From assembly GCA_021159425.1 (NCBI GenBank), contig JAGGRU010000268.1, positions 1 through 14,728 on the forward strand: 14,728 nt of DNA, written 5' to 3'. Below are positions 1 to 14,728 of this stretch, piece after piece (position 1 is the stretch's first letter; each line of letters begins with the position of its first letter). Source of the DNA: Sulfurovum sp. (GTDB taxonomy: Bacteria; Campylobacterota; Campylobacteria; Campylobacterales; Sulfurovaceae). A program made the position numbers and the translations under genes. The notes beneath the pieces were generated by a model. The model saw only the letters and a list, made by a program, of their open reading frames with translations. It was not told the origin of the DNA and did not search any database.

Positions 1-1
1 G

Positions 2-229
2 ATGAAGAAACTTCAAGATGTATTGGGTCTTTTTCATGACAGTCATCAGCAAAAATTGATCTTTGAAGGGTTGTTGAAAACAGAAAAGAATGAAAAAGTA
101 CGATCTTTTATCAATGAGATACTTTTCCCTAATTTGAAAGCATATCAGAAAAAAGAGATCTTGGAAATTCAAAAACAATTAAAGGAATTTTTGAAAAAAG
201 AGGAAGCATACAGGAAGATCTTTGCCTGA
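2..229 (+). CDS. CHAD-domain protein, C-terminal fragment
   Basis: This is the 3' end of a gene that begins before the window. The frame is open from the first bases, so the Met at base 2 is probably internal. The 75 visible residues start with KKLQDVLGLFHDSHQQ, which resembles the LQdxLGxxxD segment near the end of CHAD domains. The rest is helical and rich in Lys and Glu. CHAD domains are all-helical with conserved basic residues, bind polyphosphate, and are often encoded near polyphosphate or adenylate-cyclase-like (CYTH) proteins. No CYTH partner can be seen here. The gene ends 17 bases before the stop of the convergent upp gene. The family call rests on one short motif. Confidence 0.6.
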   Translation: MKKLQDVLGLFHDSHQQKLIFEGLLKTEKNEKVRSFINEILFPNLKAYQKKEILEIQKQLKEFLKKEEAYRKIFA

Positions 230-236
230 TCTTTTT
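215..236 (+). terminator. possible terminator of the CHAD-domain gene
   Basis: A 6-bp stem (AAGATC, 215-220, with GATCTT, 228-233) encloses a 7-base loop and runs into a T tract ending at 236. It overlaps the stop codon at 227-229 and lies just before the convergent upp end. The stem is short and AT-rich, so it is a weak intrinsic terminator at best. Confidence 0.35.
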
Positions 237-246
237 AGCCTATATA

Positions 247-870
247 TTATTCCGGTGTATTGTAAGCCCGATCTCCCGCATCTCCCAAGCCTGGCATAAT
301 AAACATTTGCTCATTAAGATTTTCATCTACCTGAGCAATATAGAGTTCTACATCCTGATGTTTTTGTTCCAGGACGGCAAGTCCTTCCGGAGATCCGATA
401 ATATTGAGTGAGATGATCTTTTTGGGTGATTTACTTTTTATGACAGCTATTGCATCACAGAGTGATCCGCCTGTGGCTACCATAGGATCAACGATGATCA
501 CTGTTTTTCCTTTACATTTGGGTATACGATCATAGTAAAGAATAGCCTGATGGGTCTTTTCGTCACGTTTCATCGCTAAAAAACCTGAAGATGCTTTTGG
601 GAAAAGTGCAGTGACTGACTCTATCATTGGAAGTCCTGCACGTAAAATGGTGACAAAAAGAAGATCTTCTTCTTTGATGAAGCCAAATGACGCTTTCCCC
701 TGCCATGTTGTGATCATTTGCTCTTCAACTGTTTCTGCTTTAAGTGCCTCGTAGACTAGCAGACGTGCCAGTTCCTGCACAATATGTCGAAAGCGCAAGG
801 CATCAGTTTTGCTTTCTCTTAAATGATTTACTAAGGTTTTAACAACAGGATTGGAAAGTTCATGGATCAT
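247..870 (-). CDS. upp: uracil phosphoribosyltransferase
   Basis: Cytosolic pyrimidine-salvage enzyme: uracil + PRPP gives UMP + diphosphate. The PRPP-binding loop is clear (VDPMVATGGS, around residues 127-136), as is the C-terminal uracil-binding signature (GLGDAGDRAYNT, near residue 200), where the usual Gly before the final Thr is Asn. An upstream ILRAGLPM segment matches the family. Length (207 aa) is normal. Two adjacent ATGs are possible, at 873 and 870. I chose 870 because the GAGG at 880-877 is only 3 bases from the first ATG but 6 from the second. The gene stands alone, convergent with the CHAD-domain gene and divergent from the FtsH-like gene. An extended -10 box lies just upstream. 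Confidence 0.95.
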   Translation of the reverse strand: MIHELSNPVVKTLVNHLRESKTDALRFRHIVQELARLLVYEALKAETVEEQMITTWQGKASFGFIKEEDLLFVTILRAGLPMIESVTALFPKASSGFLAMKRDEKTHQAILYYDRIPKCKGKTVIIVDPMVATGGSLCDAIAVIKSKSPKKIISLNIIGSPEGLAVLEQKHQDVELYIAQVDENLNEQMFIMPGLGDAGDRAYNTPE

Positions 871-876
871 CATACA

Positions 877-880
877 CCTC
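877..880 (-). promoter_or_regulatory. ribosome binding site deciding the upp start
   Basis: On the minus strand GAGG is followed by TGT and then ATGATG. Spacing is 3 bases to the first ATG and 6 to the second, so the second ATG (870) is the better start. Confidence 0.55.
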
Positions 881-897
881 TTCTCTTTAGATACTTT

Positions 898-906
898 ATT
901 ATACCA
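898..906 (-). promoter_or_regulatory. upp promoter, extended -10 box
   Basis: The minus strand reads TGGTATAAT, a perfect TG-N-TATAAT extended -10. A start about 7 bases downstream gives a leader of roughly 20 bases that includes the ribosome binding site. No convincing -35 is present, which an extended -10 does not need. The box lies about 30 bases outside the left end of the palindromic element, so the element did not destroy it. Confidence 0.55.
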
Positions 907-969
907 ACTTGTTTTGAGTTATGCTAAAATAAGGTATGGGCATCTCTAATAACCCTGTATGCTCATAAC

Positions 970-1063
970 ATCACTAGATTTTGTCTAGGCTAGGCACTCT
1001 TTTGAAGTCCTAGCCATAGCTAAGTCAAAAAAGAGTAACGACGCATAGGCAAAATCTAGTGAT
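970..1063. repeat. internal inverted repeat, 14 bp
   Basis: ATCACTAGATTTTG at 970-983 is perfectly complementary to 1050-1063, and pairing continues imperfectly through CTA. The right arm followed by GCCC reads on the other strand as GGGCATCACTAG, close to the element terminus GGGCATCTCTAA. The internal repeat may therefore be a diverged copy of the end. Confidence 0.75.
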
Positions 1064-1135
1064 GCCCAGAGGGTGGGCTTTGCAAACGCAATCTTTCACA
1101 AGATGCTTACTTCGTCTTAGCTATGGCTAGGACTT
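1005..1135. repeat. internal inverted repeat, 20 bp, interlocked with its neighbours
   Basis: AAGTCCTAGCCATAGCTAAG at 1005-1024 is perfectly complementary to 1116-1135. The left copy lies in the loop of the 970-1063 hairpin. The right copy lies in the loop of a third, 12-of-14 inverted repeat (1075-1088 with 1158-1171). The 20-bp pair therefore competes with the two side hairpins, or joins them as a kissing-loop contact. Confidence 0.75.
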
Positions 1136-1229
1136 GAAAGCTTCTTGCAAAATCTTACATTTGCAAAACCCATTATGAGTGTACAGGGTTATTAGAGATG
1201 CCCATGTATAAGCATATAAAGGTTAGATC

Positions 1230-2576
1230 ATGGCAAGAAAAAAAGCTAAAGATACTCCAAAAATACACAAATCAAAAATAGGTTTTAATGACATTGTCGG
1301 GCATACGAAAACCAAGGAACGTCTCAAAGCGATCATCAAGATGATAAAGAATCCAAAAAAACTGGAACGTTTTGATACCCCTGTCCCCAAAGGTTTGCTT
1401 TTGTATGGTCCTGTCAGTATAGGTAAAAGTATGCTTGCAAAAGCATTTGCCAAAGAGGCTGGTATGTCATATTATGAAATATCAGGTTCCCAGCTTTTTG
1501 AACTGTCTCATATCAAAGAGGTATATGAGACAGCTTCAAAACATGCACCCTGTGTAGTGATCCTTGAAGATATAGATATTAAAGGGATCATACAGGGTAC
1601 TATTACCAATGTTTCATTTTCAGATATAGCCAAAGTATTGGAGTCTATAGATGCTATGGTCTTTACCATCGCTACAGCAGAGAGTCTTGATGCAGTCGAT
1701 CCTGTTTTAACTTCATCTCAAAAGCTGGATTTTTTACTGGAAGTTTCCAAGCTTGATAAAGATGCAAGAAGGTTTTTTATAGAAAAGATAATGGAAAAAC
1801 CGCATGATCCAAAGATCAATATAGAACGTATCGTACGGTATATTACCGGAATGAGTGCCTTGGATCTTGAAAGACTAGGGCGTATGGCTGCACTTCATGT
1901 TGTGGAAGAGGAGAAAGAAGTGATCACCGAAGAAATACTTATAGAACAGATAAATATTATAAAGTATGGACATAAGATAGAAAAGCAGATGGTAAAAAAT
2001 CTTGAAGAAGAACTTGAAATGACAGCTTATCATGAAGCATCACATGCTGTGCTTTCCTCTCTTCTTTTGCCACATATAAAGATAGAGCAGGTGACCATAG
2101 CCCCTAGAAGTAAAATGCTTGGTTTTGTCTCCTATAGCGCTGATGATGAGTTGTCCAATGTAACAAAAGAGGAGTTATTTAACGATGTCTGTGTATTGCT
2201 TGCAGGACGTGTGGGAAAGATCAAAAAAGCAGGAATGGAACATATGGACAGTGGTGCGATTAATGATCTTTCACAAGCCTCACTACAGGTTTATGCTGCC
2301 ATTAGCAATCTCGGTATGGACAAAGAGTTAGGATTTATCAATATTGATTCTATTGCCGTGTTGGATAACTATTTCTTAAGTCAGCAGATCGAAAAAAGAT
2401 TTTTACACTGGATGGATGTAGCAAAAGAGCATACCATCAAATTAGTTGATAAGCATTGGAGTATCATAGAAGTATTGGCACTTAAACTCATAGAGCAGGA
2501 GATTGTCGAGAGTGATGAACTCTCAAAGATCATAGGTAAGAAAAAGATCTCACATAAGATCCCGGATAGCCTATAA
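1230..2576 (+). CDS. soluble FtsH-like protein: degenerate AAA+ domain plus zinc metalloprotease (M41)
   Basis: The 448 residues align with FtsH from the start of the AAA domain. The N-terminal membrane anchor and periplasmic region are absent, so the protein should be cytosolic. Walker A is present (GPVSIGKS, 60-67). Walker B reads VVILEDID, with D and E swapped relative to FtsH. About six residues holding the aromatic pore loop are missing after GSQLFEL (86-92). The sensor-1 Asn is Ala150, and both arginine-finger positions are replaced (Ser162, Lys165). The lid region follows (about 200-225). The M41 protease domain keeps HEASH (268-272) and the third zinc ligand in SGAINDL (Asp346). The ATG has AAAGG 7 bases upstream, and no upstream FtsH sequence is seen, so the short form is native. 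The left flank is the palindromic element; the gene converges on glgB with 6 bases between the stops. Function is unknown: possibly a motor-independent protease or a partner of true FtsH. Confidence 0.85.
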   Translation: MARKKAKDTPKIHKSKIGFNDIVGHTKTKERLKAIIKMIKNPKKLERFDTPVPKGLLLYGPVSIGKSMLAKAFAKEAGMSYYEISGSQLFELSHIKEVYETASKHAPCVVILEDIDIKGIIQGTITNVSFSDIAKVLESIDAMVFTIATAESLDAVDPVLTSSQKLDFLLEVSKLDKDARRFFIEKIMEKPHDPKINIERIVRYITGMSALDLERLGRMAALHVVEEEKEVITEEILIEQINIIKYGHKIEKQMVKNLEEELEMTAYHEASHAVLSSLLLPHIKIEQVTIAPRSKMLGFVSYSADDELSNVTKEELFNDVCVLLAGRVGKIKKAGMEHMDSGAINDLSQASLQVYAAISNLGMDKELGFINIDSIAVLDNYFLSQQIEKRFLHWMDVAKEHTIKLVDKHWSIIEVLALKLIEQEIVESDELSKIIGKKKISHKIPDSL

Positions 2577-2597
2577 ATGAGTTTAACTCATCTTTTT
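2577..2597 (+). terminator. possible terminator between the FtsH-like gene and glgB
   Basis: ATGAGTTTAACTCAT (2577-2591) is a near-perfect palindrome directly after the FtsH-like stop and is followed by CTTTTT. The stem is at most 7 bp, AT-rich and with a very small loop, so it is weak. It overlaps the last codons of glgB on the other strand. Read that way it lacks a good T tract, so it probably serves the plus strand. Confidence 0.4.
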
Positions 2598-4505
2598 AAG
2601 GTAGATAACACTAAGCGGAGGCAGTGTTACAGATAACATATTTTTTCGTCCATGATGCTCTTTTGCACGTGATTTTATGGGTGCATCATTGGTGATATCC
2701 CAGCCGTCAAATTCTGATGATTGGGAATTGAAGATCTCTTCATAGGTTCCTTTACTTGGTAAACCAATAGGATAATCCACATGCGTTTTATCTGAAAAAT
2801 TACAGATAACAACGATAGGCTTATCTCTTTTACTCCCTTTACGAATGAATGAGATAACATTTGCTTCATAGTCATTCTCATCGATCCATTCGAAACCTTC
2901 AGGTTCTACATCATTTTTATGCAGTGACGGTTCGTCCTGGTAGAGTTTATTGAGTGTTTTTAAGAGTGTATTCAGCCCTTTATGCTGTGGATATTCCAGT
3001 AAGTGCCAGTCAAGACTCCGTTCATAGTTCCACTCGGCGAACTGAGCGATATCCCCTCCCATAAAGAGAAGTTTTTTACCGGGATGTGCGATCATAAAAC
3101 CATAGAGTGCTCTGAGATTGGCAAACTTTTGGTTGTTGTCTCCCGGCATTTTATTGATGAGTGACCCTTTCATATGAACGACTTCATCATGGCTTAACGG
3201 CAGCAGATAGTTTTCATTGTATGTATAAACAAAACTGAATGTAAGATGCTGGTGATGATGCTGACGATGGATCGGATCATTTTTCATATATTTCAGTATA
3301 TCGTGCATCCATCCCATATTCCACTTATAACCAAATCCTAAGCCTCCCTGGCTGACAGGACGGCTTACCATTGGGTAGTTTGTAGACTCCTCGGCAAACA
3401 TCATAATGTCATCAAAGGCATCATAAACACTGCTGTTAAGCTGCTTTAAAAATTTGACAGCTCCTCTGTTTTCATTGGTACCGTCTTCATTAGGTATCCA
3501 CTCTCCTTCTTCCCTGGCATAATCAAGATAGAGCATGGAAGCCACCGCGTCAACACGAATACCATCAATATGATACTTCTCAAGCCAGAACATAGCAGAG
3601 CTGATCAAAAAGGCACGCACTTCATTACGGTCATAGTTGAAGATCGCACTTTTCCATTCGGGATGATACCCTTTACGCGGATCTTTATGTTCATAAAGAC
3701 AGGTACCGTCAAAATTCATCAGTCCATGTCCGTCCGTGACAAAGTGAGAAGGTACCCAGTCAAGAATGACACCGATACCATGCTCATGCATGATATCTAC
3801 AAACTGCATGAACTCCTGAGGTGTTCCATAGCGTGATGTAGGAGCAAAATAACCTGTTACCTGATATCCCCAGGAGCCTTCAAAAGGAAATTCAGTAATA
3901 GGCAGAAGTTCCACATGGGTGAAATTCATCTCTTTAAGATAGGAAGCTAAAGCTGTTGCGGCTTCTACATAAGTTAAAAAGCGATTATCCTCTTCTACTT
4001 TACGCTGCCATGAACCCAAATGGACTTCATAAATAGAGATGGGTGCTTTGTGTGAATTTTTCTTACGGCGTGAACGCATCCATGCTTTGTCATTCCATGT
4101 ATAATCATCAATATTCCAAACACGTGACGCTGAACTTGGTGCAACTTCTGCATAAAAAGCATAAGGATCAGCCTTATCTGCATTTGCATTTTCTTCATCA
4201 CTCTCAATATGATATTTATAGGTCATTCCCTGATCAACGCCTTCAATAAAACCATCCCAAATACCGGAACCGTCACCACGAAGCTGGAGTTTATGGCTTC
4301 TGTCGTTATAATCATTAAAGTCACCCCGTACATACACACCATTGGCATGAGGTGCCCAAACAGCAAAGTATGTGCCTTTGTTACCTTCACGTTCCATAAG
4401 ATGTGACCCTAAATGATCATAGAGTTTTGCATGAGATCCTTCTTTAAAGAGATAAATATCAAGCTCGGTAAAACGGCTGACATCATAGTGTATTGTGTGT
4501 GACAT
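2583..4505 (-). CDS. glgB: 1,4-alpha-glucan branching enzyme (GH13)
   Basis: Cuts alpha-1,4 glucan and rejoins the piece by an alpha-1,6 bond, making the branches of glycogen in the cytosol. With the start chosen here it has 640 residues. A CBM48-like N-terminal module (about 30-110) precedes the GH13 barrel. The four GH13 regions are visible: DWVPSH (249-254), GIRVDAV with nucleophile Asp319, AEES with general acid Glu372, and LSHDE with Asp440. A C-terminal beta domain ends the protein. It lacks the extra N-terminal module of the about 730-residue E. coli type. A longer frame reaches 4583, but it would overlap glgA by 77 bases. The ATG at 4505 has AAGGA 6 bases upstream and begins one base after the glgA stop, which implies coupling. 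It is the last gene of the operon. Confidence 0.95.
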   Translation of the reverse strand: MSHTIHYDVSRFTELDIYLFKEGSHAKLYDHLGSHLMEREGNKGTYFAVWAPHANGVYVRGDFNDYNDRSHKLQLRGDGSGIWDGFIEGVDQGMTYKYHIESDEENANADKADPYAFYAEVAPSSASRVWNIDDYTWNDKAWMRSRRKKNSHKAPISIYEVHLGSWQRKVEEDNRFLTYVEAATALASYLKEMNFTHVELLPITEFPFEGSWGYQVTGYFAPTSRYGTPQEFMQFVDIMHEHGIGVILDWVPSHFVTDGHGLMNFDGTCLYEHKDPRKGYHPEWKSAIFNYDRNEVRAFLISSAMFWLEKYHIDGIRVDAVASMLYLDYAREEGEWIPNEDGTNENRGAVKFLKQLNSSVYDAFDDIMMFAEESTNYPMVSRPVSQGGLGFGYKWNMGWMHDILKYMKNDPIHRQHHHQHLTFSFVYTYNENYLLPLSHDEVVHMKGSLINKMPGDNNQKFANLRALYGFMIAHPGKKLLFMGGDIAQFAEWNYERSLDWHLLEYPQHKGLNTLLKTLNKLYQDEPSLHKNDVEPEGFEWIDENDYEANVISFIRKGSKRDKPIVVICNFSDKTHVDYPIGLPSKGTYEEIFNSQSSEFDGWDITNDAPIKSRAKEHHGRKNMLSVTLPPLSVIYLKKMS

Positions 4506-4506
4506 T

Positions 4507-6000
4507 TTAATTCCTTTCTGTTGCATCACCAAAACGCTGTGCAATGCTGTATCTATACATATCTTCATAAGATTTAGCTGCAACTTCCCAACTGAACTGT
4601 TTTTTCATTGCATTTTTTATGAGATTCTTCATTCCCTTTTTATCATGATAGTAGGTATCTACTGCCCATTTCACTGTGCCATACAAGGCGTCTGCAGAAG
4701 CTTCATAAAACTTAAATCCGTCACCTTTTCCGGTATAGGGCTGATAATTTTCGATCGTATCTTCCAAGCCGCCTGTCGCACGAACGATCGGCAGCGTTCC
4801 GTAGCGGAGACTATAGATCTGATTGAGCCCGCAAGGCTCAAAGAGTGAAGGCATCAAAAAGAAATCGCTTCCTGCTTCGATCTGATGTGCCAGATCATTT
4901 TTGTATCCTATATAGGTTCCAAATTTTTCCGGATAGTCTGAGGCGATTTGACTGAAAAAGTCTTCAGCCCACTTTTCACCTGCACCCAAAAGAACGATTT
5001 GAATATCCATGTCCAAAAGCCCATGAATTGCTTCCGCCAAAAGGGTGATACCTTTTTGTTCCGCCAGTCGTCCAACCAAACCGATGAGAGGTACATCTTT
5101 ACGTTGAGGCAAACCGAATGTTTTTTGCAGTTCACTCTTACAGATCTTTTTTCCTGCCATTTTATTGCTGTCGTAATTAGAAGGAATAAGCGTATCGACT
5201 GCCGGACTCCACTCCTCATAATCCACACCATTCAAGATACCAAAGAGTTTTGTACCATGATGACCGATCAAACCTTCAAGCCCCCATCCAAATTCGGAAG
5301 TACGGATCTCATCGGCATACTTTTGACTTACAGCGTTAATGGCATTGGAATGCACAATTCCCCCTTTTAAAAGGTTGATCCCGTCATGTTCTTCCAGTTC
5401 ATTTACATTAAAATGTTCCCATCCTATACCTAAAACATCCATAGCACCCTTATAGAACTTACCTTGATGCTGAAGATTATGGATGCTCAGTACAGAAGCC
5501 GTACGTTCAAAGTCAGGATCATTTGCATAGACTGTATTTAGGAAGATCGGCATCGCTGCAGTATGCCAGTCATTTGCATGGATGATATCCGGATTGAAAT
5601 GCAGTTTCTTAGCCAATTGCATTGCGGCCCGTGAAAGAAAGATAAAACGGTTGTCATTGTCACTGAAAGCAATGCCATTTTCATCATAAAGACCTTTGCG
5701 TCCATAGTAACGCTCATGCTCAATAAAGTAGATCGGCACATCAGATCCGGGAAGCACACCTTCATGCACGCCTGCCCACTCTTCTCCGATCACGCCCATA
5801 GGTACACCAAGTGAACCCTCCATAGGTTTGAGATCGTATTTCTCTCTGTCAACAATATAATAACGCGGCATCACGACCCGTACATCATGTCCAAGTTTAC
5901 GAAGTGCTTTTGGAAGTGCACCTACAACATCGGCTAAACCTCCGCTCTTGGCAAAAGGAACCACTTCTGCTGCAACGATTAAGATCTTTAATTTCTTCAT
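4507..6000 (-). CDS. glgA: glycogen synthase, GT5 (first of two paralogues)
   Basis: Transfers glucose from a sugar nucleotide (ADP-glucose in most bacteria) to the non-reducing end of an alpha-1,4 glucan in the cytosol. The 497 residues show the GT5 N-terminal motif KSGGLADV (Lys18), HANDWHTA (141-148), the C-domain start GRLAEQKG (310-317) and the catalytic-loop motif FEPCGLNQ with Glu388. The C-terminal SWEVAAKSYEDMYR helix is typical. A longer frame reaches 6033, but the ATG at 6000 has AAGGAG 8 bases upstream, while the upstream ATG has none. It lies 48 bases after malQ and one base before glgB. It is closer to the family consensus than the second copy at 7563-8975, so it is the better candidate for the main elongating synthase (inference). 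Confidence 0.95.
   Translation of the reverse strand: MKKLKILIVAAEVVPFAKSGGLADVVGALPKALRKLGHDVRVVMPRYYIVDREKYDLKPMEGSLGVPMGVIGEEWAGVHEGVLPGSDVPIYFIEHERYYGRKGLYDENGIAFSDNDNRFIFLSRAAMQLAKKLHFNPDIIHANDWHTAAMPIFLNTVYANDPDFERTASVLSIHNLQHQGKFYKGAMDVLGIGWEHFNVNELEEHDGINLLKGGIVHSNAINAVSQKYADEIRTSEFGWGLEGLIGHHGTKLFGILNGVDYEEWSPAVDTLIPSNYDSNKMAGKKICKSELQKTFGLPQRKDVPLIGLVGRLAEQKGITLLAEAIHGLLDMDIQIVLLGAGEKWAEDFFSQIASDYPEKFGTYIGYKNDLAHQIEAGSDFFLMPSLFEPCGLNQIYSLRYGTLPIVRATGGLEDTIENYQPYTGKGDGFKFYEASADALYGTVKWAVDTYYHDKKGMKNLIKNAMKKQFSWEVAAKSYEDMYRYSIAQRFGDATERN
4511..4516 (-). promoter_or_regulatory. ribosome binding site deciding the glgB start
   Basis: AAGGAA lies inside the last codons of glgA (Glu-Arg-Asn-stop). 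The AAGGA core is 6 bases before the ATG at 4505. This supports the shorter GlgB and re-initiation by ribosomes finishing glgA. Confidence 0.75.
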
Positions 6001-6008
6001 ATTTTTAT

Positions 6009-6014
6009 CTCCTT
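6009..6014 (-). promoter_or_regulatory. ribosome binding site deciding the glgA start
   Basis: AAGGAG sits 8 bases before the ATG at 6000. The alternative in-frame ATG at 6033 has no purine-rich site upstream, so the shorter GlgA is preferred. Confidence 0.75.
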
Positions 6015-6024
6015 CTTTAACTAT

Positions 6025-6030
6025 ATTATA
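6025..6030 (-). promoter_or_regulatory. possible internal promoter -10 before glgA
   Basis: A perfect TATAAT on the minus strand lies in the 48-base malQ/glgA gap, the widest gap within the operon. No -35 or correctly spaced extended -10 TG is present. It could give glgA-glgB some independent expression, but such a hexamer is easy to find by chance in AT-rich DNA. Confidence 0.25.
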
Positions 6031-6048
6031 CATCTAATTTTTAAATTC

Positions 6049-7566
6049 TTACGCATCTTCCGATTTTCGATCTGCAACCCGTCCATAAAGTTGGGTCATT
6101 TCCAGTAAGTCTTCTTCAAGATCTGTATCTAATACATCATCCTTCATTCTCCATTGCCAGTTTCCACCCATTATCCCCGGACGATTCATATAGGCTTCAC
6201 TTCCCAGACCAAGCAGATCCTGCATTGGGAACAGTGCTATATTGCACACCGTCCCCAATGCAGCACGGATCATATCTCTATGAATGAGCCCGGCATCTGT
6301 ATTGAGATAGCGTCTTGTAAAATCCTGAACCTCTTCAGGCTGATTATTCCACCATCCGACTACGGTATCATTGTCGTGAGTACCTGTATAGACCACTTGA
6401 TTTCTCTTTAGGTTATGCGGTAGGAATGCAGAGGGATCAGCACTTTCCATAGACTCAAATCCAAATTGCAGTACTGCCATCCCCGGATAATTCACTGCTT
6501 CAAGCAGATCGGTCACATCCTGGGTGATGATGCCAAGATCTTCCGCGATCAAAGGCAACTTTCCCCCCATGGCTTTTTCAAGTGTTTTGAAAAGATCCAA
6601 TCCAGGTCCTTTTTTCCATTGACCGGAGATCGCCGTCGTTTCATCCGCCGGAATTTCCCAATAGCTTGCAAACCCGCGAAAATGATCTATTCTGACAAGA
6701 TCGAACATATTTGCCATATGACGAAAACGATCCACCCAGAAAGAATACTTTTCTTTTTTCAGTACTTTCCAGTCAAAGAGAGGATTTCCCCAACGCTGTC
6801 CGGTTTCACTGAAATAGTCCGGCGGTACACCTGCAACGACGGTAGGATTACCGGCACTGTCCAGTTTAAACCACTTGGGATGACTCCAGACATCAGAGCT
6901 GTCATGTGCCACAAAGATCGGCAGGTCACCTATGAGTTTCACATGATGCTGTTTGGCATACTGTTGTAATTTTTCAAATTGTCGGAAAAAAAGAAACTGA
7001 ATAAAGCGATGTAACTGGAGTTCATCATGAAGTTTCTCTGCCTGATCAGCAAGTGCTTTAGGATGACGCATCCTCAGCACTTTTGGCCACTCTGTCCATG
7101 GACGCATCTCATGATGAGATTTCAGTGCAGAAAAAAGTACAAAATCTTCCAGCCATGCAGCTTCTTTTTTGCAAAAGTCATGAAACGGTTCTGCCAACAG
7201 ATGTTTTGGAAGAAGCTTAAACTGCAAATAGGCTTTTTTTAACAGCTTAAGTTTATAGGGAATGACTTGATCATACGCCACATGCGTTTGATCAAAGGAC
7301 TCAGTTTCTATCTCCAGGGGAGAGAGAAGTTCATCTTCGATCAATAGTTCCGGACTGATAAGTACGGGATTGCCGGCAAAAGCAGAAAGCGTCTGATAGG
7401 GAGAATCTCCATAACCTGTTGGTCCCAAGGGAAGCATTTGCCAAAATGTTTGACCGGAATGCTCCAAAAAATCAATAAAATGGTAGGCAGAAGGACCTAA
7501 GTCTCCTATGCCATATGTCGTTGGAAGCGATGTCGGATGCAGAAGAATTCCACTGGTACGTTTCAT
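6049..7566 (-). CDS. malQ: 4-alpha-glucanotransferase (amylomaltase, GH77)
   Basis: Disproportionates alpha-1,4 glucans by moving a glucan segment to another chain or to glucose; cytosolic. The 505-residue length is that of the compact amylomaltases. The start RTSGILLHPTSLP is characteristic. The catalytic triad is visible: nucleophile Asp294 in VRIDHFRG, acid/base Glu342 in IAEDLG, and Asp398 in THDNDT. The C-terminal NRPGIMGGNWQWR is also a family hallmark. The ATG overlaps the stop of the upstream glgA-type gene in an ATGA, and AGGA lies about 7 bases before it, so translation is probably coupled. In this setting it may recycle short maltodextrins trimmed from glycogen, or make primers for the synthases. 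Confidence 0.95.
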   Translation of the reverse strand: MKRTSGILLHPTSLPTTYGIGDLGPSAYHFIDFLEHSGQTFWQMLPLGPTGYGDSPYQTLSAFAGNPVLISPELLIEDELLSPLEIETESFDQTHVAYDQVIPYKLKLLKKAYLQFKLLPKHLLAEPFHDFCKKEAAWLEDFVLFSALKSHHEMRPWTEWPKVLRMRHPKALADQAEKLHDELQLHRFIQFLFFRQFEKLQQYAKQHHVKLIGDLPIFVAHDSSDVWSHPKWFKLDSAGNPTVVAGVPPDYFSETGQRWGNPLFDWKVLKKEKYSFWVDRFRHMANMFDLVRIDHFRGFASYWEIPADETTAISGQWKKGPGLDLFKTLEKAMGGKLPLIAEDLGIITQDVTDLLEAVNYPGMAVLQFGFESMESADPSAFLPHNLKRNQVVYTGTHDNDTVVGWWNNQPEEVQDFTRRYLNTDAGLIHRDMIRAALGTVCNIALFPMQDLLGLGSEAYMNRPGIMGGNWQWRMKDDVLDTDLEEDLLEMTQLYGRVADRKSEDA

Positions 7567-8975
7567 ATTGTTTTCCTATAGAGCTTTAAATAGCTTTTGC
7601 TACTCTCTTCAAAAGAGACATTGCAATGCATATTGGATTTTGAAATTTTTGAAAAATGTTTTTTGGATGCAAACAGCTTCAATGACCGCTTTACTGCTTT
7701 GACAATAGCAGTACTGCTTAATGTACTCAGTAAAATACCCTGTCCGCAAATAGAACTATCAGTATCATCTATATCCCGAACAGTGTCATGCAGTCCGCCT
7801 ACATCATTGACTATAGGTATCGTCCCATAACGCAGGGAAATAAGCTGATTGAGTCCGCAAGGCTCAAAACGTGAAGGCATTAGAAGGAGATCCGCTGCTG
7901 CATACATTCTGTGTGACAGAGATTCATTATAACCAAAGAGGATCGAAAAATTGTCATAATTTTTACTTGCACTCATCAATGTTTCAGCCATTGTCTCATC
8001 ACCATCTCCCAAAATAGCAAAGTTAAGTTTCATTGCCAATAGTTTAGGTAAAGCTTCTATAATAATATCAAGCCCTTTTTGTTCCGTAAAACGTCCAATG
8101 AAAACGATAAGCGGCTTATCTGCATCTGTCAGTCCATGTGCTTTACAAAAGAGAGTTTTATTACTTTTTTTACCTGAAAGTTTTTCAGCACTGTAGTGTT
8201 TTGTGAGTGCCGGATCGTTCAGAGGATCAAAAAGTACTGTATCAATACCATTGAGAATGCCGTGAAGTTTAGAGGTATGAACCTGCAAAAAACCCTCAAG
8301 TCCACAGCCAAATTCAGGCAGAAGGATCTCTTTGGCATATGTGGGACTTACTGTTGTTACAACATCACTGTAGGCAATACCCGCCTTCATACAATTCATC
8401 TTTCCCCAGAACTCAATACCTTCAGGCGTAAAATAATGCTCACTCAGCCCCAGACGCTCTACACTTTCCCTGGGGAAAAGTCCCTGAAAAACCAAATTGT
8501 GAATCGTGAAAATAACAGGTAGTTCAGGGAGTACTTCTTTTGCCCAGAGTGCTGCCAATGCAGTGTGCCAATCGTTAAGATGTAATATATCGATCTTAAA
8601 CATTTCTGCCATAATAACCAGCGTTTTGGAAAAAATGCCAAAACGAAGATCATTTGAGGGATAGTCACCATTTTTGTTTCCATAGGGAGTGATACAGTGG
8701 CATAAGGTTGCTTCGTGTACAAAAAGGGTACGTACACCCCGATTCATTCCTTCAAAAAGTGAGATCTCATAGATATCTTTTCCCAGTGTAATCTGGAAGG
8801 ACTCATTCATCGATGTAAGAGCAAATTTTTCTCTATCTATAAAATCATAAAGAGGCATCACCGAAAGTACATCTGTCTGTTTCGCCAAAGCAGCGGGTAA
8901 AGCCTGTGCTACATCCGCCAATCCCCCGGTTTTTGCATAAGGAAAAATTTCAGAGGCAGCAAAAAGCAGCTTCAT
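7563..8975 (-). CDS. glgA: second glycogen/starch synthase, GT5
   Basis: A second GlgA-family glucosyltransferase of 470 residues. It keeps KTGGLADV (Lys15), HLNDWHTA (132-139), GRFTEQKG (294-301) and SRFEPCGLNQ (Glu371), so it should be active. It is shorter than the other copy because of gaps in the N-terminal domain, and its C-terminal helix reads VSFEESSKSYLKLY, with Phe where GlgA usually has Trp. The two copies are clearly diverged and are separated by malQ, so this is not a recent tandem duplication. The ATG follows the galT stop directly (TAAATG), with GAGAGG inside the galT end. Where two synthases occur they can differ in chain initiation or chain-length preference. Which role applies here, and whether ADP- or UDP-glucose is used, cannot be read from the sequence. 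Confidence 0.92.
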   Translation of the reverse strand: MKLLFAASEIFPYAKTGGLADVAQALPAALAKQTDVLSVMPLYDFIDREKFALTSMNESFQITLGKDIYEISLFEGMNRGVRTLFVHEATLCHCITPYGNKNGDYPSNDLRFGIFSKTLVIMAEMFKIDILHLNDWHTALAALWAKEVLPELPVIFTIHNLVFQGLFPRESVERLGLSEHYFTPEGIEFWGKMNCMKAGIAYSDVVTTVSPTYAKEILLPEFGCGLEGFLQVHTSKLHGILNGIDTVLFDPLNDPALTKHYSAEKLSGKKSNKTLFCKAHGLTDADKPLIVFIGRFTEQKGLDIIIEALPKLLAMKLNFAILGDGDETMAETLMSASKNYDNFSILFGYNESLSHRMYAAADLLLMPSRFEPCGLNQLISLRYGTIPIVNDVGGLHDTVRDIDDTDSSICGQGILLSTLSSTAIVKAVKRSLKLFASKKHFSKISKSNMHCNVSFEESSKSYLKLYRKTI

Positions 8976-9995
8976 TTAAATTTTTACCTCTCGTAACAGA
9001 TCTGCTGCTTCTTCCGGTTCCACAGGGTTAATTAACATTCCGGTAGAGAGTTCAAAGCCTCCCAGTCGATAGATACGAGGCATAATACGGATCGTCATCC
9101 GATAATACTTTTTGAGATGGGGAAAATAAGGCTCATTTTCAAAATTGCTGTTTAACGGTGCCATATTGAAAGCGAGATTATAGTTGAAGTTTCCCAACTG
9201 TACATCCAAGCGCATAAACACTTCTTTCAGCAGTTCGGAAAGATGAACAATATCATCACGATTGAGGTCATCAAGTGTACTCAACGCTCTTTTAGGTGCT
9301 ATCATTACCTCAAAGGGAAAACTTGATGCAAAAGGGCAAAAAGCTACAAAATCACCTCTTTGAGTGATAATTCTTAACTTTTCATTTACTTCATTTTCAA
9401 GAATATCTTCTACTTTTCCACGTCCGTGCCGACGATAATACTGAAAATCTTTTTCCATAAGCCTCAGCACGTTATGCGGCTCGACAGGGAGTGCGATGAT
9501 CTGGGTATGAGGATGCGGTTGTGTCGCACCTGCATTCTCTCCATGATTTTTAAATACAGAGATATGGATCAGTCGTTTGTCCTGGCGAAGATCAGCGATG
9601 CGCATAGAGATAGCTGAAAGCCATTGTCCTATCTGCAGACTATCCAAGCTAGCCGGGCGGCAATCATGAGAGGGCGTATCGATGACGATCTCATGTGCTC
9701 CCACTCCCGGACGAGACTCAAACATACCGTCTACTTTTGAATAATCTTCAAGTTCGATCTGTACTGCTTTATAAAGATTGGGGATAACACGTACACTCCA
9801 GCCATTCTCATTGGCATGATTGCTTCTGATCGCATAGATCTCAGGAGGTGTCATCTCTTCATGCCCTTCACAAAAAGGACAAGAATCCTTCGATGTGGAT
9901 GAAGGCTTGACTAAAAGTGTATCGGGTCGTCTCATGCGTTCGGGTGCGATCAAAACATAATGATCGTGCAATCTATCTCGTCGTATTTCAGACAT
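8976..9995 (-). CDS. galT: GalT-family hexose-1-phosphate uridylyltransferase
   Basis: HIT-superfamily nucleotidyltransferase; the classic reaction is UDP-glucose + galactose-1-P giving glucose-1-P + UDP-galactose. Numbered from the second ATG, the zinc-site Cys pair is CPFC (39-42). The active site HPHTQ (161-165) holds a probable zinc ligand (His161), the nucleophile His163 and Gln165; His110 may also bind zinc. Length (339 aa) is normal. ATGs at 10001 and 9995 are possible. The GAGG at 10007-10004 is 2 bases from the first and 8 from the second, so I chose 9995. No galK or galE accompanies it, and its neighbours are glucan enzymes. It may therefore act on NDP-glucose, as GalT-like ADP-glucose phosphorylases do, rather than on galactose. 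The family is sure; the substrate is not. Confidence 0.88.
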   Translation of the reverse strand: MSEIRRDRLHDHYVLIAPERMRRPDTLLVKPSSTSKDSCPFCEGHEEMTPPEIYAIRSNHANENGWSVRVIPNLYKAVQIELEDYSKVDGMFESRPGVGAHEIVIDTPSHDCRPASLDSLQIGQWLSAISMRIADLRQDKRLIHISVFKNHGENAGATQPHPHTQIIALPVEPHNVLRLMEKDFQYYRRHGRGKVEDILENEVNEKLRIITQRGDFVAFCPFASSFPFEVMIAPKRALSTLDDLNRDDIVHLSELLKEVFMRLDVQLGNFNYNLAFNMAPLNSNFENEPYFPHLKKYYRMTIRIMPRIYRLGGFELSTGMLINPVEPEEAADLLREVKI

Positions 9996-10003
9996 GGGCA
10001 TTT

Positions 10004-10007
10004 CCTC
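10004..10007 (-). promoter_or_regulatory. ribosome binding site deciding the galT start
   Basis: GAGG is 2 bases from the ATG at 10001, which is too close, and 8 bases from the in-frame ATG at 9995. The second start is preferred. Confidence 0.5.
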
Positions 10008-10016
10008 TTTTATTCA

Positions 10017-12056
10017 TTAGACAAACCAGTTTTCTGCATATGTAGTCTCCAGGTTGACTTCAAGTTCTCCGTAACCGGGAAGCGTTTGAGTAATGATACC
10101 ATCCCGTTCGATCTCAAAACGCAGCTGAATCTCTCCGGCATCGAGTGCAGAAAAATCCAGACTCAATTCAAGCCATGTAGCACAAGCCACTTCAAGCTTG
10201 ACACCATTTGATTCGTTCATAGACTTTTTTGTGCTGCAAAGTGCTGCAAACTGAATTTCAAATCGTATTTGAAACGGTTCAATGATAATATGAAGTTTAT
10301 CACAATGTTGCAATGTAGGCATATCACCTATAAAGGCACAAAAGAACTGCTTTTCATTTTGACCAAAACGTATGGTCTCGATCGGACCACGGACCCTATC
10401 CATCGTTGAGAAGAGTTTTGTTTCATCAACAACCCCACACCCAACCCACTCAAAGAAAGTATTGTGACTACCGTTAATATCCGGAGAGATAGGAAATTTC
10501 GGTTGTAAGAGAAAGTCTTCACTGCTACGATCAGAAATGATCGGAGTATAGAGATCGTAAGGGGGTGATATGTTCATAAGAAGATAGATCTCTATCAGAT
10601 GTGAACGGAAAAGCTCATCAAATTCAGCACCAAATTCAGTAACATGATCATCTCCATACCACCAGAACCAGTCTGAACACTGAGCAGCAAGGAAGTGTTG
10701 AAGGATCTTCTCTTTAACTTCTTGCCCCAGTGTCTCTTCATGGTGCTGATAGTCACGCTTGGTCATATAGATCAGTTCCCAGCCGCGTGTTTTTTCAGGA
10801 TGTCCTACCCAGGTATTGAACTCACCATGGATCCAGCTTCCGGGTGCCAAACGGGAAAGTTCTTTTGCTTCCTGCTGTGCAACTTCATCCATACCTACCA
10901 TTTCGCACCAGGAAGTATGTGAGAGTTTACGGTAGAGTGCATCAAAAAAGTCAAATGCATTGTTATTATAAAATTCCCAGGCATTCTCACCATCAAGAAT
11001 AACAAATACTGTACTATCCTCTCCCACACCCGGAAGAGACTCCAGCGAAGAGACAAAATGATCTGCTGCACGCTCTGAATCCCAAAAACGATAGGTAAAC
11101 CCTAACAGGTCACTGAGTCCATGGTCTCTAAAACCTATCGTAAGATCACTGTATTTGTAAGGTTGATAGAGTGTATCACGATGATCTGAACCTAAGGATT
11201 TAAATAAGATCGCTTCATCTGTTGCGATCCATTTGAGTCCGGCATCACGATAGAATGCAGCAGTACGTTCATCTACCGCTCCTTCTGCCGGCCAAAACCC
11301 TACTGCATCGTGACCGAAAGTCTTTTTAAATAATTCCTGTGCTCTGGATATTTGAAGTTTTGCATCTTCTTCCATTGAGATAGGATGTTCCGGAAGATTA
11401 GACCCCGGATGTGCGATCTCTGCATTGTGCATATCAACAAGCAGAGGCAAGATAGGGTGGTTAAGCGGTGTGGTGGAAAGCGAAATCGTTCCCTCATTTT
11501 GTAATTTGCTATAGTAGGGGAAAATGCTTGAAATAAAGTCACCAAGTGTCTCTAGCAATGAAAGCTTCTGATGACATTGAAACCCATCTTTTGTCTCAAG
11601 TAACTCTTTGATAACACTGTTGTGTGTACGCAGATACACTCCACACCAGGCAAGAATGAACCACACTTCCATATCACAAAGTTCATCATCGCTATACTGT
11701 TCAAGATGGTAGAGTTCACTATAGGGTTCGATCGGTTCGATCATTGTTTCATAAGGTGCGCTTTTGCACATCTTGATCATCCATTGTCGATCTGTTTCAT
11801 TTAATTCCGAGGGATGTTTCATCCATAAAGTAAAAAAACGATCATTTGAGACAATATCCTCACTATAGAGTTGTATCTGTTCTATCAGTGGAGGGGTAAT
11901 ATTGAATGTGGCTTTTAAACCACTGTGACGAGCAAGCATCCAAGGCATATCGTAATAATCTTTAATAGCATGCAGAAAAACCCAAGGCATCTGCATAATA
12001 CCGGAAGCATTGCGATAATCAGGTTGATGCATGTGCCAGAGAAAAGCCAGTTTCAT
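10017..12056 (-). CDS. GH57 alpha-glucan hydrolase or transferase
   Basis: Retaining alpha-glucan enzyme of family GH57. The five family regions can be followed in 679 residues: LWHMHQPDY (6-14), LVDMHNAEIAHPGS (206-219), the nucleophile segment GFWPAEGA with Glu258, the acid/base segment LDGENAW with Asp355, and GSWIHGEFNTW (406-416). SDWFWWYGDD (461-470) is also typical. A beta-rich C-terminal domain (about 520-679) follows the barrel. No signal peptide, so cytosolic. GH57 includes amylases, amylopullulanases, glucanotransferases and branching enzymes, and I cannot tell which this is. The frame extends to 12158, but the chosen ATG at 12056 gives the family N-terminus and lies 4 bases after the upstream stop. 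It has only a weak ribosome binding site, so coupling is likely. Confidence 0.9.
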   Translation of the reverse strand: MKLAFLWHMHQPDYRNASGIMQMPWVFLHAIKDYYDMPWMLARHSGLKATFNITPPLIEQIQLYSEDIVSNDRFFTLWMKHPSELNETDRQWMIKMCKSAPYETMIEPIEPYSELYHLEQYSDDELCDMEVWFILAWCGVYLRTHNSVIKELLETKDGFQCHQKLSLLETLGDFISSIFPYYSKLQNEGTISLSTTPLNHPILPLLVDMHNAEIAHPGSNLPEHPISMEEDAKLQISRAQELFKKTFGHDAVGFWPAEGAVDERTAAFYRDAGLKWIATDEAILFKSLGSDHRDTLYQPYKYSDLTIGFRDHGLSDLLGFTYRFWDSERAADHFVSSLESLPGVGEDSTVFVILDGENAWEFYNNNAFDFFDALYRKLSHTSWCEMVGMDEVAQQEAKELSRLAPGSWIHGEFNTWVGHPEKTRGWELIYMTKRDYQHHEETLGQEVKEKILQHFLAAQCSDWFWWYGDDHVTEFGAEFDELFRSHLIEIYLLMNISPPYDLYTPIISDRSSEDFLLQPKFPISPDINGSHNTFFEWVGCGVVDETKLFSTMDRVRGPIETIRFGQNEKQFFCAFIGDMPTLQHCDKLHIIIEPFQIRFEIQFAALCSTKKSMNESNGVKLEVACATWLELSLDFSALDAGEIQLRFEIERDGIITQTLPGYGELEVNLETTYAENWFV

Positions 12057-12060
12057 TATG

Positions 12061-14565
12061 CTACTTTGTCCAATTTGCGATTTTTTCCTCGTACTGAGCA
12101 AAAATTGCTTTTCCTGCTGTCTCGTTTTCTGCCTGTATGTAGAGATTGAGATGGTCACTGTACTGATCAGGGATCATTAATATCCAGTCAGTTTCATTCA
12201 GCCAGATCTTCACACCGTCAGAGGAAGAAGAACGCTTATCACGGCTGTCTTCCAGGAATTTACGCATCATTTTTCCTTTAAGTGCCTGAGAGCACTCAAT
12301 TTTGGTTTGCGTATGATAGAAGTTTTCTGTTTTTGCAACAAGATCAGCAAGTTTCACATCATACTTGACGAGCATTTCCAAAATTTTAATGGCAGCATAC
12401 ATGGAATCTCTATAAAGAGAAAATTCGGTAAAGGCAAAGTTTCCATCCGTTGTAGCTATCAAGTCATATTTTTTTAGCTGCTCTGCTTTAAAATCTGCAT
12501 ATTTACCATACTCGATATCAAGATTATCAAATTTAACCATGTCCGGAGCCCAAGTAGGCAGGAAGATACGTTTTCTAACTCCTTCAGCAACAGCATCAAG
12601 ATCCATAAGCGCCAGAACGATCAAAAGAGAATCCTGCTTTGAGAGCAGGGTTCCTTTGTCGCAAACAATCTCCAAACGTTGCCCGAAAGGATACAGAAGG
12701 AATCCGGCATCAAGTTCCAGGCTTTTGACGATCTTTTGCATATCCTCAATGGAGTGCTTATGCAGAGATTTGAAATTGGCGAGGCGTTGCGCATCATAGA
12801 AGCCATTGAAGATGATATTCTCAATCTTCAGATCATTAAGTACATGAGGGAAAACTTCACTTGCCGCACCATGCATCATGTCTACTGCAATACGACAGTC
12901 TACACAGGAGAAAAGTCTCTTTTGAAAACTCTCTTCCATGCTTTTTTTGTAGTCGCCGCACTCTTCAATACGATGAGATTCGGTTACTCTCCCGATTTTA
13001 CTAAAATCCACTCTTCTGAAAGTCTCTTTGAAGAAAGCTTTCTCAATCTTTTTGGCAAGGTCATTGTTGATGCGAAGTGCTTCATCATTATAAAAAGTCA
13101 CTACTGTACTGCTCGTATCATCTCTTACTTGTTTGAAGAATACCCCTGCAATGTAGTCTGTATGACGAGTCAGGTCGTAACGCATCACAGAGGAGGGAAT
13201 GCTTTTGAGGTCAATGACATTGATACCTGCTGCCAGCATACCTCCCACGAATGCCCGCTTGAGCATTCGTGAACTTTTATGGTGATCTCTGCCTACCAGG
13301 ATAGTGCTGCCTACCGGAAGCTGTACCCCAAAAGCCTCAGCCAGTTTACTGGACATTTCACAGGAGAACTCTACATTGGATTTTCCTATGACCATCCCGT
13401 TTTCAAAAATAGAGTTTTTGTATTTACTCCCCAGGATCACATTGCTACTGATGATAGAGGCAGATTCGATTATTTTGTCAGGCCAAATGGTCACATCTTT
13501 TTCTACTGTCACCAATTCACCGATTTCACAACCTTCTGCCAGGATGATTCCTGCGGTCATTTTGGTATTTTTACCGATGATATTATTATTACAGATCACA
13601 CCATTGTCGATCTTCGTACCTTTGCCGATAGAGACATTTTCCCAGATCACAGAGTTGCTGATTTTGCTGTCTTCGCCTATTGCACCATTGTCGGAAACAA
13701 CGATATTTTTAAGCTTGGCTCTTTTACCGATCGTAACATTTTTACCCAAAACAACTTTTCCGATGATCTCTACACTCTCGTCGAGATCATAAGGTTCAGA
13801 ACTGTAGAGCTCACCGTCGGGATATTGGGTCACTTCACCAGGCATTTTGAAGTCAACCCGTCCACTCATGATATCTTCATGGACTTCTCTATAGCTGTCA
13901 GGATTTCCAACATCTCTCCAATATCCATCGGCATATCCGGCGATCAGTTCAACATTTTCTTCCATCAGAAGGGGGAAGAGATCTTTGGCAAAGTCAAAAT
14001 CCTCTCCTTTGGGAATATAGTCAAGGATCTCCGGTTCTATGATATAGATACCGGTATTGATCGTATCACTGAAGACTTCTCCCCAGCTTGGCTTTTCAAG
14101 GAACTTTTCGATCGTACCTTCATCGTTGGCAATAACCACACCAAATTCCAGTGGATTTTCGACAGAGGTCAATGTGATCGTCAGCTTGGATTTTTTCTGT
14201 TTATGATAGTCGAATATCTTTTGAAAGTCAAAATCTGTTACCAGGTCACCAGAGATAATGATAAAGTTATCATCACCGATGAGATCCTGTGCCAGTTTGA
14301 CGGCACCCGCTGTTCCATAATCATCATCAGGAATAACATAAGTAATATTCATGCCAAAGTCACTGCCATCACCAAAATAGTCCTGTATGACCTCCGGCTT
14401 AAAGTAGAGGAGAACAATAAAATCTTTGATCCCCAGATCTCTCATGGTAATCATTGTATTTTCCATCATTGGTCGATTGATAACCGGTAACATTGGTTTA
14501 GGTCTTGAGTTTGTAAGTGGCTGAATCCGTGATCCGAATCCTCCTGCCATGACTACTGCTTTCAT
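12061..14565 (-). CDS. sugar-phosphate nucleotidyltransferase with hexapeptide helix and degenerate phosphohexomutase domain
   Basis: Three modules in 834 residues. First, a nucleotidyltransferase (1 to about 235) with MAGGFGSRIQPLT, RPKPMLPV and the metal-binding SGDLVTD, of the mannose-1-P guanylyltransferase or glucose-1-P nucleotidyltransferase type and not GlgC. Second, a left-handed beta-helix of hexapeptide repeats (about 255-375). Third, a phosphomannomutase/phosphoglucomutase-like region (about 400-830) recognised by GRDHHKSSRMLKRAF and its general layout. All four mutase active-site loops are replaced: no TASHNP serine loop (near 476-490), YPFGQR (625-630) for the metal loop DGDxDR, ATTDGNF (704-710) for the GGEESGH sugar loop, and IPDQYSD (798-804) for the RPSGTEP phosphate loop. 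The mutase part is thus probably structural or regulatory. This is the first gene of the glucan operon, with AGGGG 8 bases before the ATG. It may supply NDP-glucose or GDP-mannose; the sequence does not decide. Confidence 0.88.
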   Translation of the reverse strand: MKAVVMAGGFGSRIQPLTNSRPKPMLPVINRPMMENTMITMRDLGIKDFIVLLYFKPEVIQDYFGDGSDFGMNITYVIPDDDYGTAGAVKLAQDLIGDDNFIIISGDLVTDFDFQKIFDYHKQKKSKLTITLTSVENPLEFGVVIANDEGTIEKFLEKPSWGEVFSDTINTGIYIIEPEILDYIPKGEDFDFAKDLFPLLMEENVELIAGYADGYWRDVGNPDSYREVHEDIMSGRVDFKMPGEVTQYPDGELYSSEPYDLDESVEIIGKVVLGKNVTIGKRAKLKNIVVSDNGAIGEDSKISNSVIWENVSIGKGTKIDNGVICNNNIIGKNTKMTAGIILAEGCEIGELVTVEKDVTIWPDKIIESASIISSNVILGSKYKNSIFENGMVIGKSNVEFSCEMSSKLAEAFGVQLPVGSTILVGRDHHKSSRMLKRAFVGGMLAAGINVIDLKSIPSSVMRYDLTRHTDYIAGVFFKQVRDDTSSTVVTFYNDEALRINNDLAKKIEKAFFKETFRRVDFSKIGRVTESHRIEECGDYKKSMEESFQKRLFSCVDCRIAVDMMHGAASEVFPHVLNDLKIENIIFNGFYDAQRLANFKSLHKHSIEDMQKIVKSLELDAGFLLYPFGQRLEIVCDKGTLLSKQDSLLIVLALMDLDAVAEGVRKRIFLPTWAPDMVKFDNLDIEYGKYADFKAEQLKKYDLIATTDGNFAFTEFSLYRDSMYAAIKILEMLVKYDVKLADLVAKTENFYHTQTKIECSQALKGKMMRKFLEDSRDKRSSSSDGVKIWLNETDWILMIPDQYSDHLNLYIQAENETAGKAIFAQYEEKIANWTK

Positions 14566-14636
14566 AATTCACACCCCTTTTTTAATAATTAAATATATAA
14601 ACTGTATTGATAAATATCTTTTGTGTACCTAATATT

Positions 14637-14642
14637 ATTATA
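14637..14642 (-). promoter_or_regulatory. candidate promoter -10 of the glucan operon
   Basis: A TATAAT on the minus strand lies about 70 bases before the first operon gene, in a 163-base AT-rich stretch (14566-14728) without a gene. No clear -35 is present. The leader would be about 65 bases and ends with AAGGGG before the ATG. Several other AT-rich hexamers in the leader could serve instead. I see no operator, riboswitch or attenuator there. Confidence 0.35.
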
Positions 14643-14728
14643 TATCCAAACATGTTAATATATATTGAAAAACCTTAATGCTAATTAAAACCGTCCCGAC
14701 TTTCATACATAGTAACCACATAAAACCT

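Follow-up and report, generated by a model that had tools for sequence, protein, structure and literature searches.

An FtsH-like protein of Sulfurovum that keeps the zinc protease site and lacks the membrane anchor and motor residues

FtsH-type proteases are taken to require ATP-driven threading. Plant FtsHi proteins keep the P-loop and have lost the HExxH zinc motif, as stated in the accessible part of PMC11266112. FtsH ternary conflict systems contain two FtsH-type AAA domains, the N-terminal one catalytically dead, accompanied by MoxR and vWA genes (Kaur et al. 2020, PMC7159879, accessible part), and hexamer formation has been described for the protease or ATPase domains of FtsH alone (accessible part of PMC9020784). 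Here we describe a gene in a 14,728-nucleotide stretch of Sulfurovum sp. DNA (contig JAGGRU010000268.1, positions 1 to 14,728, called the window), encoding an FtsH-like protein of 448 amino acids, which we call S. A sequence-only reading of the window had presented this protein as the reverse of plant FtsHi, and the comparison is apt: S retains the zinc protease site and has lost the motor residues, and the same genus also encodes two kinds of protein that have lost HExxH, referred to below as group B and the FtsHi-like protein.

The open reading frame starts with an ATG at 1230, preceded at a distance of 7 nt by an AAAGG motif, and its stop codon ends at 2576. A Pfam profile search with the protein found a single AAA domain (59.9 bits) and a Peptidase_M41 domain (90.6 bits, profile positions 5–191 of 191), the latter with HExxH and the third zinc ligand Asp as in FtsH. 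With the FtsH equivalog model TIGR01241 S scored 196.5 bits, below the cut-off of 600 bits, and with NF042959, which describes the IetA/IteA anti-phage ATPase, 49.8 bits, below the cut-off of 510 bits; the PADLOC model PDLC02196 gave 42.1 bits. The sequence starts directly at the AAA domain, and the N-terminal transmembrane helices of FtsH are missing. No transmembrane-like segment was found in S, with a maximal 19-residue hydropathy of 1.19 versus 2.24–3.05 in 16 membrane FtsH proteins, which bears out the absence of a membrane anchor. In the predicted structure the AAA large subdomain shows predicted local distance difference test (pLDDT) values of 84–95 by block, except for residues 111–130.

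We compared the motor and zinc-site motifs of 32 S proteins, the window protein included, with those of 32 membrane-type FtsH proteins, namely 16 from the family Sulfurovaceae and 16 of 20 dereplicated proteins from viral contigs (L219, L237, L248 and L253 being excluded). A split copy (L061), the fragments of genomes G102 and G118 and the short proteins L105–L108 were left out of the S counts. The pore-1 interval comprises 3 residues in every S protein versus 9 in every FtsH protein, so that the deletion, previously put at about six residues, is exactly six, and the aromatic FVG loop is absent. In Walker B the window protein reads ILEDID where FtsH has FIDEID; this exchange of Asp for Glu and Glu for Asp, already noticed in the sequence-only reading, is present in 32 of 32 S proteins, and Asp116 is invariant. 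Sensor 1 and the Arg fingers were located with the help of the E. coli numbering. The sensor-1 position holds Glu (28), Gln (2), Gly (1) or Thr (1) in S and Asn in all 32 FtsH proteins; the loss of Asn thus stands as proposed, while the residue had been misplaced by one, the position aligning with Glu151 and not with Ala150. The loss of both Arg fingers at Ser162 and Lys165 was equally recovered, no S protein having Arg at either position. Walker B DE, sensor-1 Asn and the two Arg fingers of FtsH are each found in 0 of 32 S proteins, and none of these orthologues has the pore loop or the Arg fingers intact, so the condition that would have refuted the sequence-only reading did not arise. Position 67 of the P-loop, normally a Ser or Thr that acts as magnesium ligand, is Ser in 22, Gly in 5, Lys in 3 and Ala in 2 proteins, Ser/Thr being gone in 10 of 32.

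At the protease site the situation is reversed. HEASH, Asp346 and Walker A are present in the window protein as first read, and HExxH, the motif lost in FtsHi, is invariant in all 32 S proteins together with the third zinc ligand. The recurrence of the same losses with a kept zinc site in all 32 proteins goes beyond chance. When columns conserved in at least 90% of canonical FtsH are considered, S keeps 36% of 87 in the AAA subdomain, 35% of 20 in the lid and 68% of 27 in the M41 domain; the earlier claim that losses fall in the motor therefore holds as a bias and not as a total separation. The viral-contig proteins set apart from the controls were inspected separately: L219 and L237 are canonical, and L248 has a 9-residue interval with a WVG-type loop. 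In L253 (1507–2895) HELGH and RPGR are kept, and the FVG loop and sensor-1 Asn are absent, so the loss of motor elements beside a retained zinc site is not wholly confined to the clade of S. The four short relatives from another family (L105–L108) keep the zinc site and have ED in Walker B in three cases and KD in L107.

The gene was found in 35 of 175 Sulfurovaceae genomes, the window's own included, 33 of them belonging to the window's genus (78 genomes) and 2 to another genus. Thirty-two copies are full or nearly full (at least 67% identity); those in G102 and G118 are fragments and that in G115 is split. The family genomes include five named relatives with 79–85% identity, four of them Sulfurovum metagenome-assembled genomes and one a Campylobacterota metagenome-assembled genome. 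Besides the window, 31 intact or nearly intact orthologues show 67–85% identity. The ratio of nonsynonymous to synonymous substitution rates (dN/dS) is 0.025–0.114, mostly 0.03–0.07, in 14 of the 19 orthologue pairs that have usable dS. Such low values show that the gene is not decaying, and the earlier proposal that selection preserves a protein with lost motor elements and a retained zinc site is supported, the orthologues being under purifying selection. dN/dS is similarly low in the AAA and M41 halves, now no higher in the AAA half, and in the lid and linker 41 of 80 columns are invariant with dN/dS of 0 to 0.069 in the same 14 pairs. As both domains are about equally constrained, the AAA domain is needed, apparently not as a motor.

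S, which we also refer to as group D, is part of a wider clade. An order-wide survey of 398 genomes gave strong matches in 69 genomes from 19 of 87 genera, and loci of the clade were compared in 60 stretches, with another 20 added for group B and L046. All groups share the six-residue pore-loop deletion, which is present in 7/7 proteins of A, 20/20 of B, 33/33 of C and 32/32 of S. Membrane hydropathy as in FtsH (at least 2.24) is reached by 0 of 96 clade proteins; five attain 1.6–1.89, in one of them within an N-terminal extension whose start is uncertain. The longer members (762–1092 amino acids) have an additional N-terminal ring resembling ClpA/B D2, which in the three proteins tested matches the D2 of ClpB and ClpA (in L115, ClpB 558–850 and ClpA 447–715). 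Group A keeps the P-loop and DEIEK of this ring in 6 of 7 proteins, and has HExxH; its FtsH motor lacks nothing but the pore loop and an Arg at the counterpart of residue 168. In group B the N-terminal ring has the P-loop and GW[KS]GY in 20 of 20 proteins and Walker B as DAFEK or DSFEK (one row containing unresolved residues); the FtsH ring is complete with the same two exceptions, and HExxH is lost in 25 of 25 proteins, 5 further ones included, with intact motor residues. Group C (33 proteins, 762–896 amino acids) has a degenerate N-terminal ring, with a GYxGY-like segment in 0 of 33 and the P-loop Ser in one. Walker B of its FtsH ring reads ED (12), EG (8), DE (6) or otherwise (7); sensor-1 Asn is found in 2, the first Arg finger in 5, and the second Arg finger and the zinc site in all 33. 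S lacks the N-terminal ring and has lost the second Arg finger as well.

In a FastTree phylogeny of the clade, B nests with A (0.929) and S forms one clade (0.945) joined to the long protein L144 (0.998), while the node uniting C and D is weak (0.587). L046, a long form from the family of the window, is placed with C and not with S, which could reflect transfer or old paralogy. From the tree, loss of the pore loop before loss of hydrolysis would be the simplest order. Since the deletion is also found in members with an intact motor, in which the other ring could thread, it is by itself no evidence of motor decay; the deletion reported earlier is real and its meaning as a sign of motor loss is weakened. 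We also considered that S is one half of a split gene whose N-terminal ring is encoded elsewhere, and rejected this, no separate gene for the ring being found in 8 genomes. The matches there were frames of 862–872 and 729–737 amino acids, whose size alone suggests ClpB and ClpA, and a 325-residue frame at a contig start in G213. A mobile origin finds no support: 80% of the group A protein is covered by none of the plasmid or phage records, and the 30 plasmid matches listed for S all stay below 30% identity.

The surroundings of the longer members differ between groups. The group B loci are L039–L058 except L046, and L142; in 14 of the 20 the retrieved flanking DNA contains a trigger-factor-like gene (one member Pfam-tested), and hemerythrin, repeat and receiver-domain genes are near the others. 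Four of the seven group A loci (L134, L135, L136 and L137; Pfam-tested in L134, L135 and L137) have STAND-type nucleoside triphosphatase neighbours with DUF4062, and a TIR protein is near the group A gene in L134 and L136 (Pfam-tested in L134), giving these four the look of a conflict or defence island. No neighbours of the DUF4062 or TIR type were seen around group A loci L140, L141 and L143.

A ring peptidase that does not unfold its substrates is the simplest way to reconcile a zinc site that never varies with a dead motor and an AAA domain under constraint. Judged from its sequence, S may be an ATP-independent, soluble, oligomeric M41 zinc peptidase with an inert AAA scaffold, derived from a two-ring ancestor, a reading to which we give about even chances. 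The ancestor would have been a protease with a ClpA/B-D2-type ring, an FtsH-type ring and an M41 domain, from which the S lineage would first have shed ATP hydrolysis and threading, and later the entire N-terminal ring. Selection would have maintained the remaining FtsH-type AAA domain as a scaffold for oligomerisation and a passive gate on top of the M41 ring. The M41 disk and the AAA ring would assemble, probably as a hexamer, small or floppy substrates could enter by diffusion, and S would cut peptides, unfolded segments or exposed tails without any unfolding. With slightly less than even confidence we propose that the lineage gave up ATP by stages, represented today by proteins that range from A, a two-ring Clp-FtsH protease with both activities, through the long C proteins with degenerate rings and a retained peptidase to S, a 448-residue ATP-free M41 peptidase with an inert ring, while the sister group B kept the motor and lost the peptidase, sometimes in the same cell.

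Several observations weigh against the ATP-independent peptidase. S is present in 24 of 42 genus genomes that are at least 90% complete, and is dispensable since the other 18 do without it. The FtsH-likeness of the predicted structure is partly built in because its alignment contained 20 FtsH proteins; prediction from the orthologues alone (6) gave a pLDDT of 40. Nucleotide may still be bound, given that Gly60, Gly65, Lys66 and Asp116 are invariant, and slow hydrolysis is possible with the acidic pair Glu113/Asp114. Group C may not be wholly motor-dead, as Walker B DE persists in 6 of 33 members and the second Arg finger in every one.

The invariance of Gly60, Gly65, Lys66 and Asp116 in S, together with the equal constraint on AAA and protease halves, would suit a nucleotide-gated or slow-ATPase peptidase, whose AAA ring binds nucleotide and opens or closes the M41 ring without threading. 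This possibility, raised in part by the sequence-only reading, has gained from the invariant P-loop Gly and Lys residues and is weakened by the loss of the P-loop Ser/Thr in ten proteins, by the absent Arg fingers and by the replaced sensor 1; we judge it unlikely. A pseudo-enzyme serving as binder or adaptor, with HExxH retained for structural zinc only, could explain why the M41 half keeps no more of its canonical columns than it does. Glu269, both His residues and Asp346 nevertheless never vary among the 32 S and 33 C proteins, and group B drops the His residues readily, which makes this quite improbable. S may still be an adaptor or regulator of FtsH, as had also been suggested, but no pointer to this was found, the loci compared having no conserved neighbour. 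Split copies in single genomes (G115, G344) would fit a decaying pseudogene or paralogue, an idea that orthologue conservation and low dN/dS rule out for practical purposes.

S might instead supply the protease site for an ATPase partner in mixed rings with membrane FtsH, the FtsHi-like protein or group B, one subunit pulling and the other cutting. Motors with a dead protease are available: close orthologues (at least 60% identity) of the membrane FtsHi-like protein occur in 71 of 78 genus genomes, 5 further genomes being left out of this count because their best match is another FtsH. All 16 genus copies inspected keep motor and pore loop and have YQ[AGS]AK for HExxH (YQGAK in the copy from the window's genome, L004:589–2259, G000:C15). 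We take Helicobacter HP0286 to be a possible counterpart. Group B is likewise the complement of S, and mixed FtsH-type complexes are known according to the accessible parts of PMC9020784 and PMC11266112. Co-occurrence, not corrected for kinship, is mixed: of the 8 genus genomes with the YEAGR subgroup of B, 7 also have S (Fisher p 0.009); among the 42 genomes at least 90% complete the figure is 5 of 6 (p 0.21), and 19 of the 24 S genomes there lack YEAGR-type B. The other subgroup coincides with S in 2 of 12 genus genomes and, at that completeness, in 0 of 6 versus 24 of 36 genomes (p 0.004). The subgroup of G096, G101, G119 and G128 was assigned by length and identity and confirmed from the sequences. 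A fixed S–B complex is therefore unlikely, and group B as obligate partner finds no support in the distribution. Further, no gene is constant among the listed neighbours of S loci, and S has no membrane anchor. Altogether we regard a partner ATPase as a rather doubtful explanation. No canonical ftsH was found in the window's genome (G000), a 1.87-Mb draft of 411 contigs that is 81% complete; the gene is probably missing from the assembly, since relatives have one.

Table 1. Positions of the S gene and of its domains and motifs in the window.
Feature	Position (residues)	Strand	Basis
Entire gene; FtsH-like protein of 448 amino acids, no membrane anchor (group D, S)	1230..2576	+	
AAA large subdomain, motor motifs lost	1275..1754 (about 16-175)	+	Pfam AAA 56-172; motif counts; model pLDDT
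Walker A GPVSIGKS	1407..1430 (60-67)	+	Gly60, Gly65, Lys66 invariant 32/32, Ser67 not
Site of missing six-residue pore-1 loop	1500..1514 (91-95)	+	
Walker B with D/E exchanged, VILEDID	1557..1577 (110-116)	+	
Sensor-1 Asn position, Glu151	1680..1682	+	
Arg-finger positions Ser162 and Lys165	1713..1724	+	
AAA lid and linker, strongest constraint among orthologues	1755..1994 (about 176-255)	+	Column invariance, dN/dS
M41 zinc metallopeptidase domain	1995..2540 (about 256-437)	+	Pfam M41 259-434; predicted structure
HEASH zinc/catalytic motif	2031..2045 (268-272)	+	Both His and Glu in 32/32
Third zinc ligand Asp346 in SGAxxDL	2265..2267	+	D in 32/32

In the window the S gene is flanked by upp on the opposite strand and by a convergent glycogen cluster. 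upp adjoins S in many, not all, loci; the gap between the two is 356 nt in the window versus 80–163 nt in 12 other loci with upp next to S. An element resembling a miniature inverted-repeat transposable element occupies positions 936–1205, with 33-nt terminal inverted repeats (94% complementary), and ends 24 nt short of the start codon; a similar stretch (87%) is located at G000:C1:11951–12141. The glycogen cluster (2583–14565) encodes two glycogen synthase-like proteins, a branching-enzyme-like protein, GH77 and GH57 proteins, a GalT-like protein and a nucleotidyltransferase-phosphomutase fusion.

A conserved family without threading and hydrolysis residues in which the zinc site is never lost makes it testable whether an M41 ring works alone. 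S also allows one to ask what a non-motor AAA ring does and by what route coupled machines separate during evolution; group B, its complement within the genus, provides a built-in control.

Compared with FtsH, m-AAA and i-AAA proteases (M41, TIGR01241), S is without the membrane segment, the FVG loop, sensor-1 Asn and the Arg fingers, and its Walker B is exchanged. With group B it shares the clade and the pore-loop deletion, whereas group B has motor residues, no HExxH, an N-terminal Clp-D2-like ring and a trigger-factor-like gene nearby. The ClpA/ClpB D2 ring (TIGR02639, TIGR03346), whose homologue in the longer relatives is the N-terminal ring (three tested), is absent from S. A dead AAA domain is common to S and the FtsH ternary systems, as far as the accessible part of their description goes; S has one AAA domain, and no MoxR- or vWA-type neighbours are among the 8 window genes tested, the neighbours being uracil phosphoribosyltransferase and glycogen genes. 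Titles and abstract beginnings yielded no soluble, motor-dead, HExxH-intact FtsH relative, a weak negative with most subscription papers outside the search, and the S family may be undescribed, with FtsHi as the known reverse case. Like plant FtsHi and the Ycf2-FtsHi motor (accessible part of PMC11266112; PDB 8xku), S is an FtsH relative in which one of two activities has been lost, and it represents the opposite case, with HExxH kept and the motor lost.
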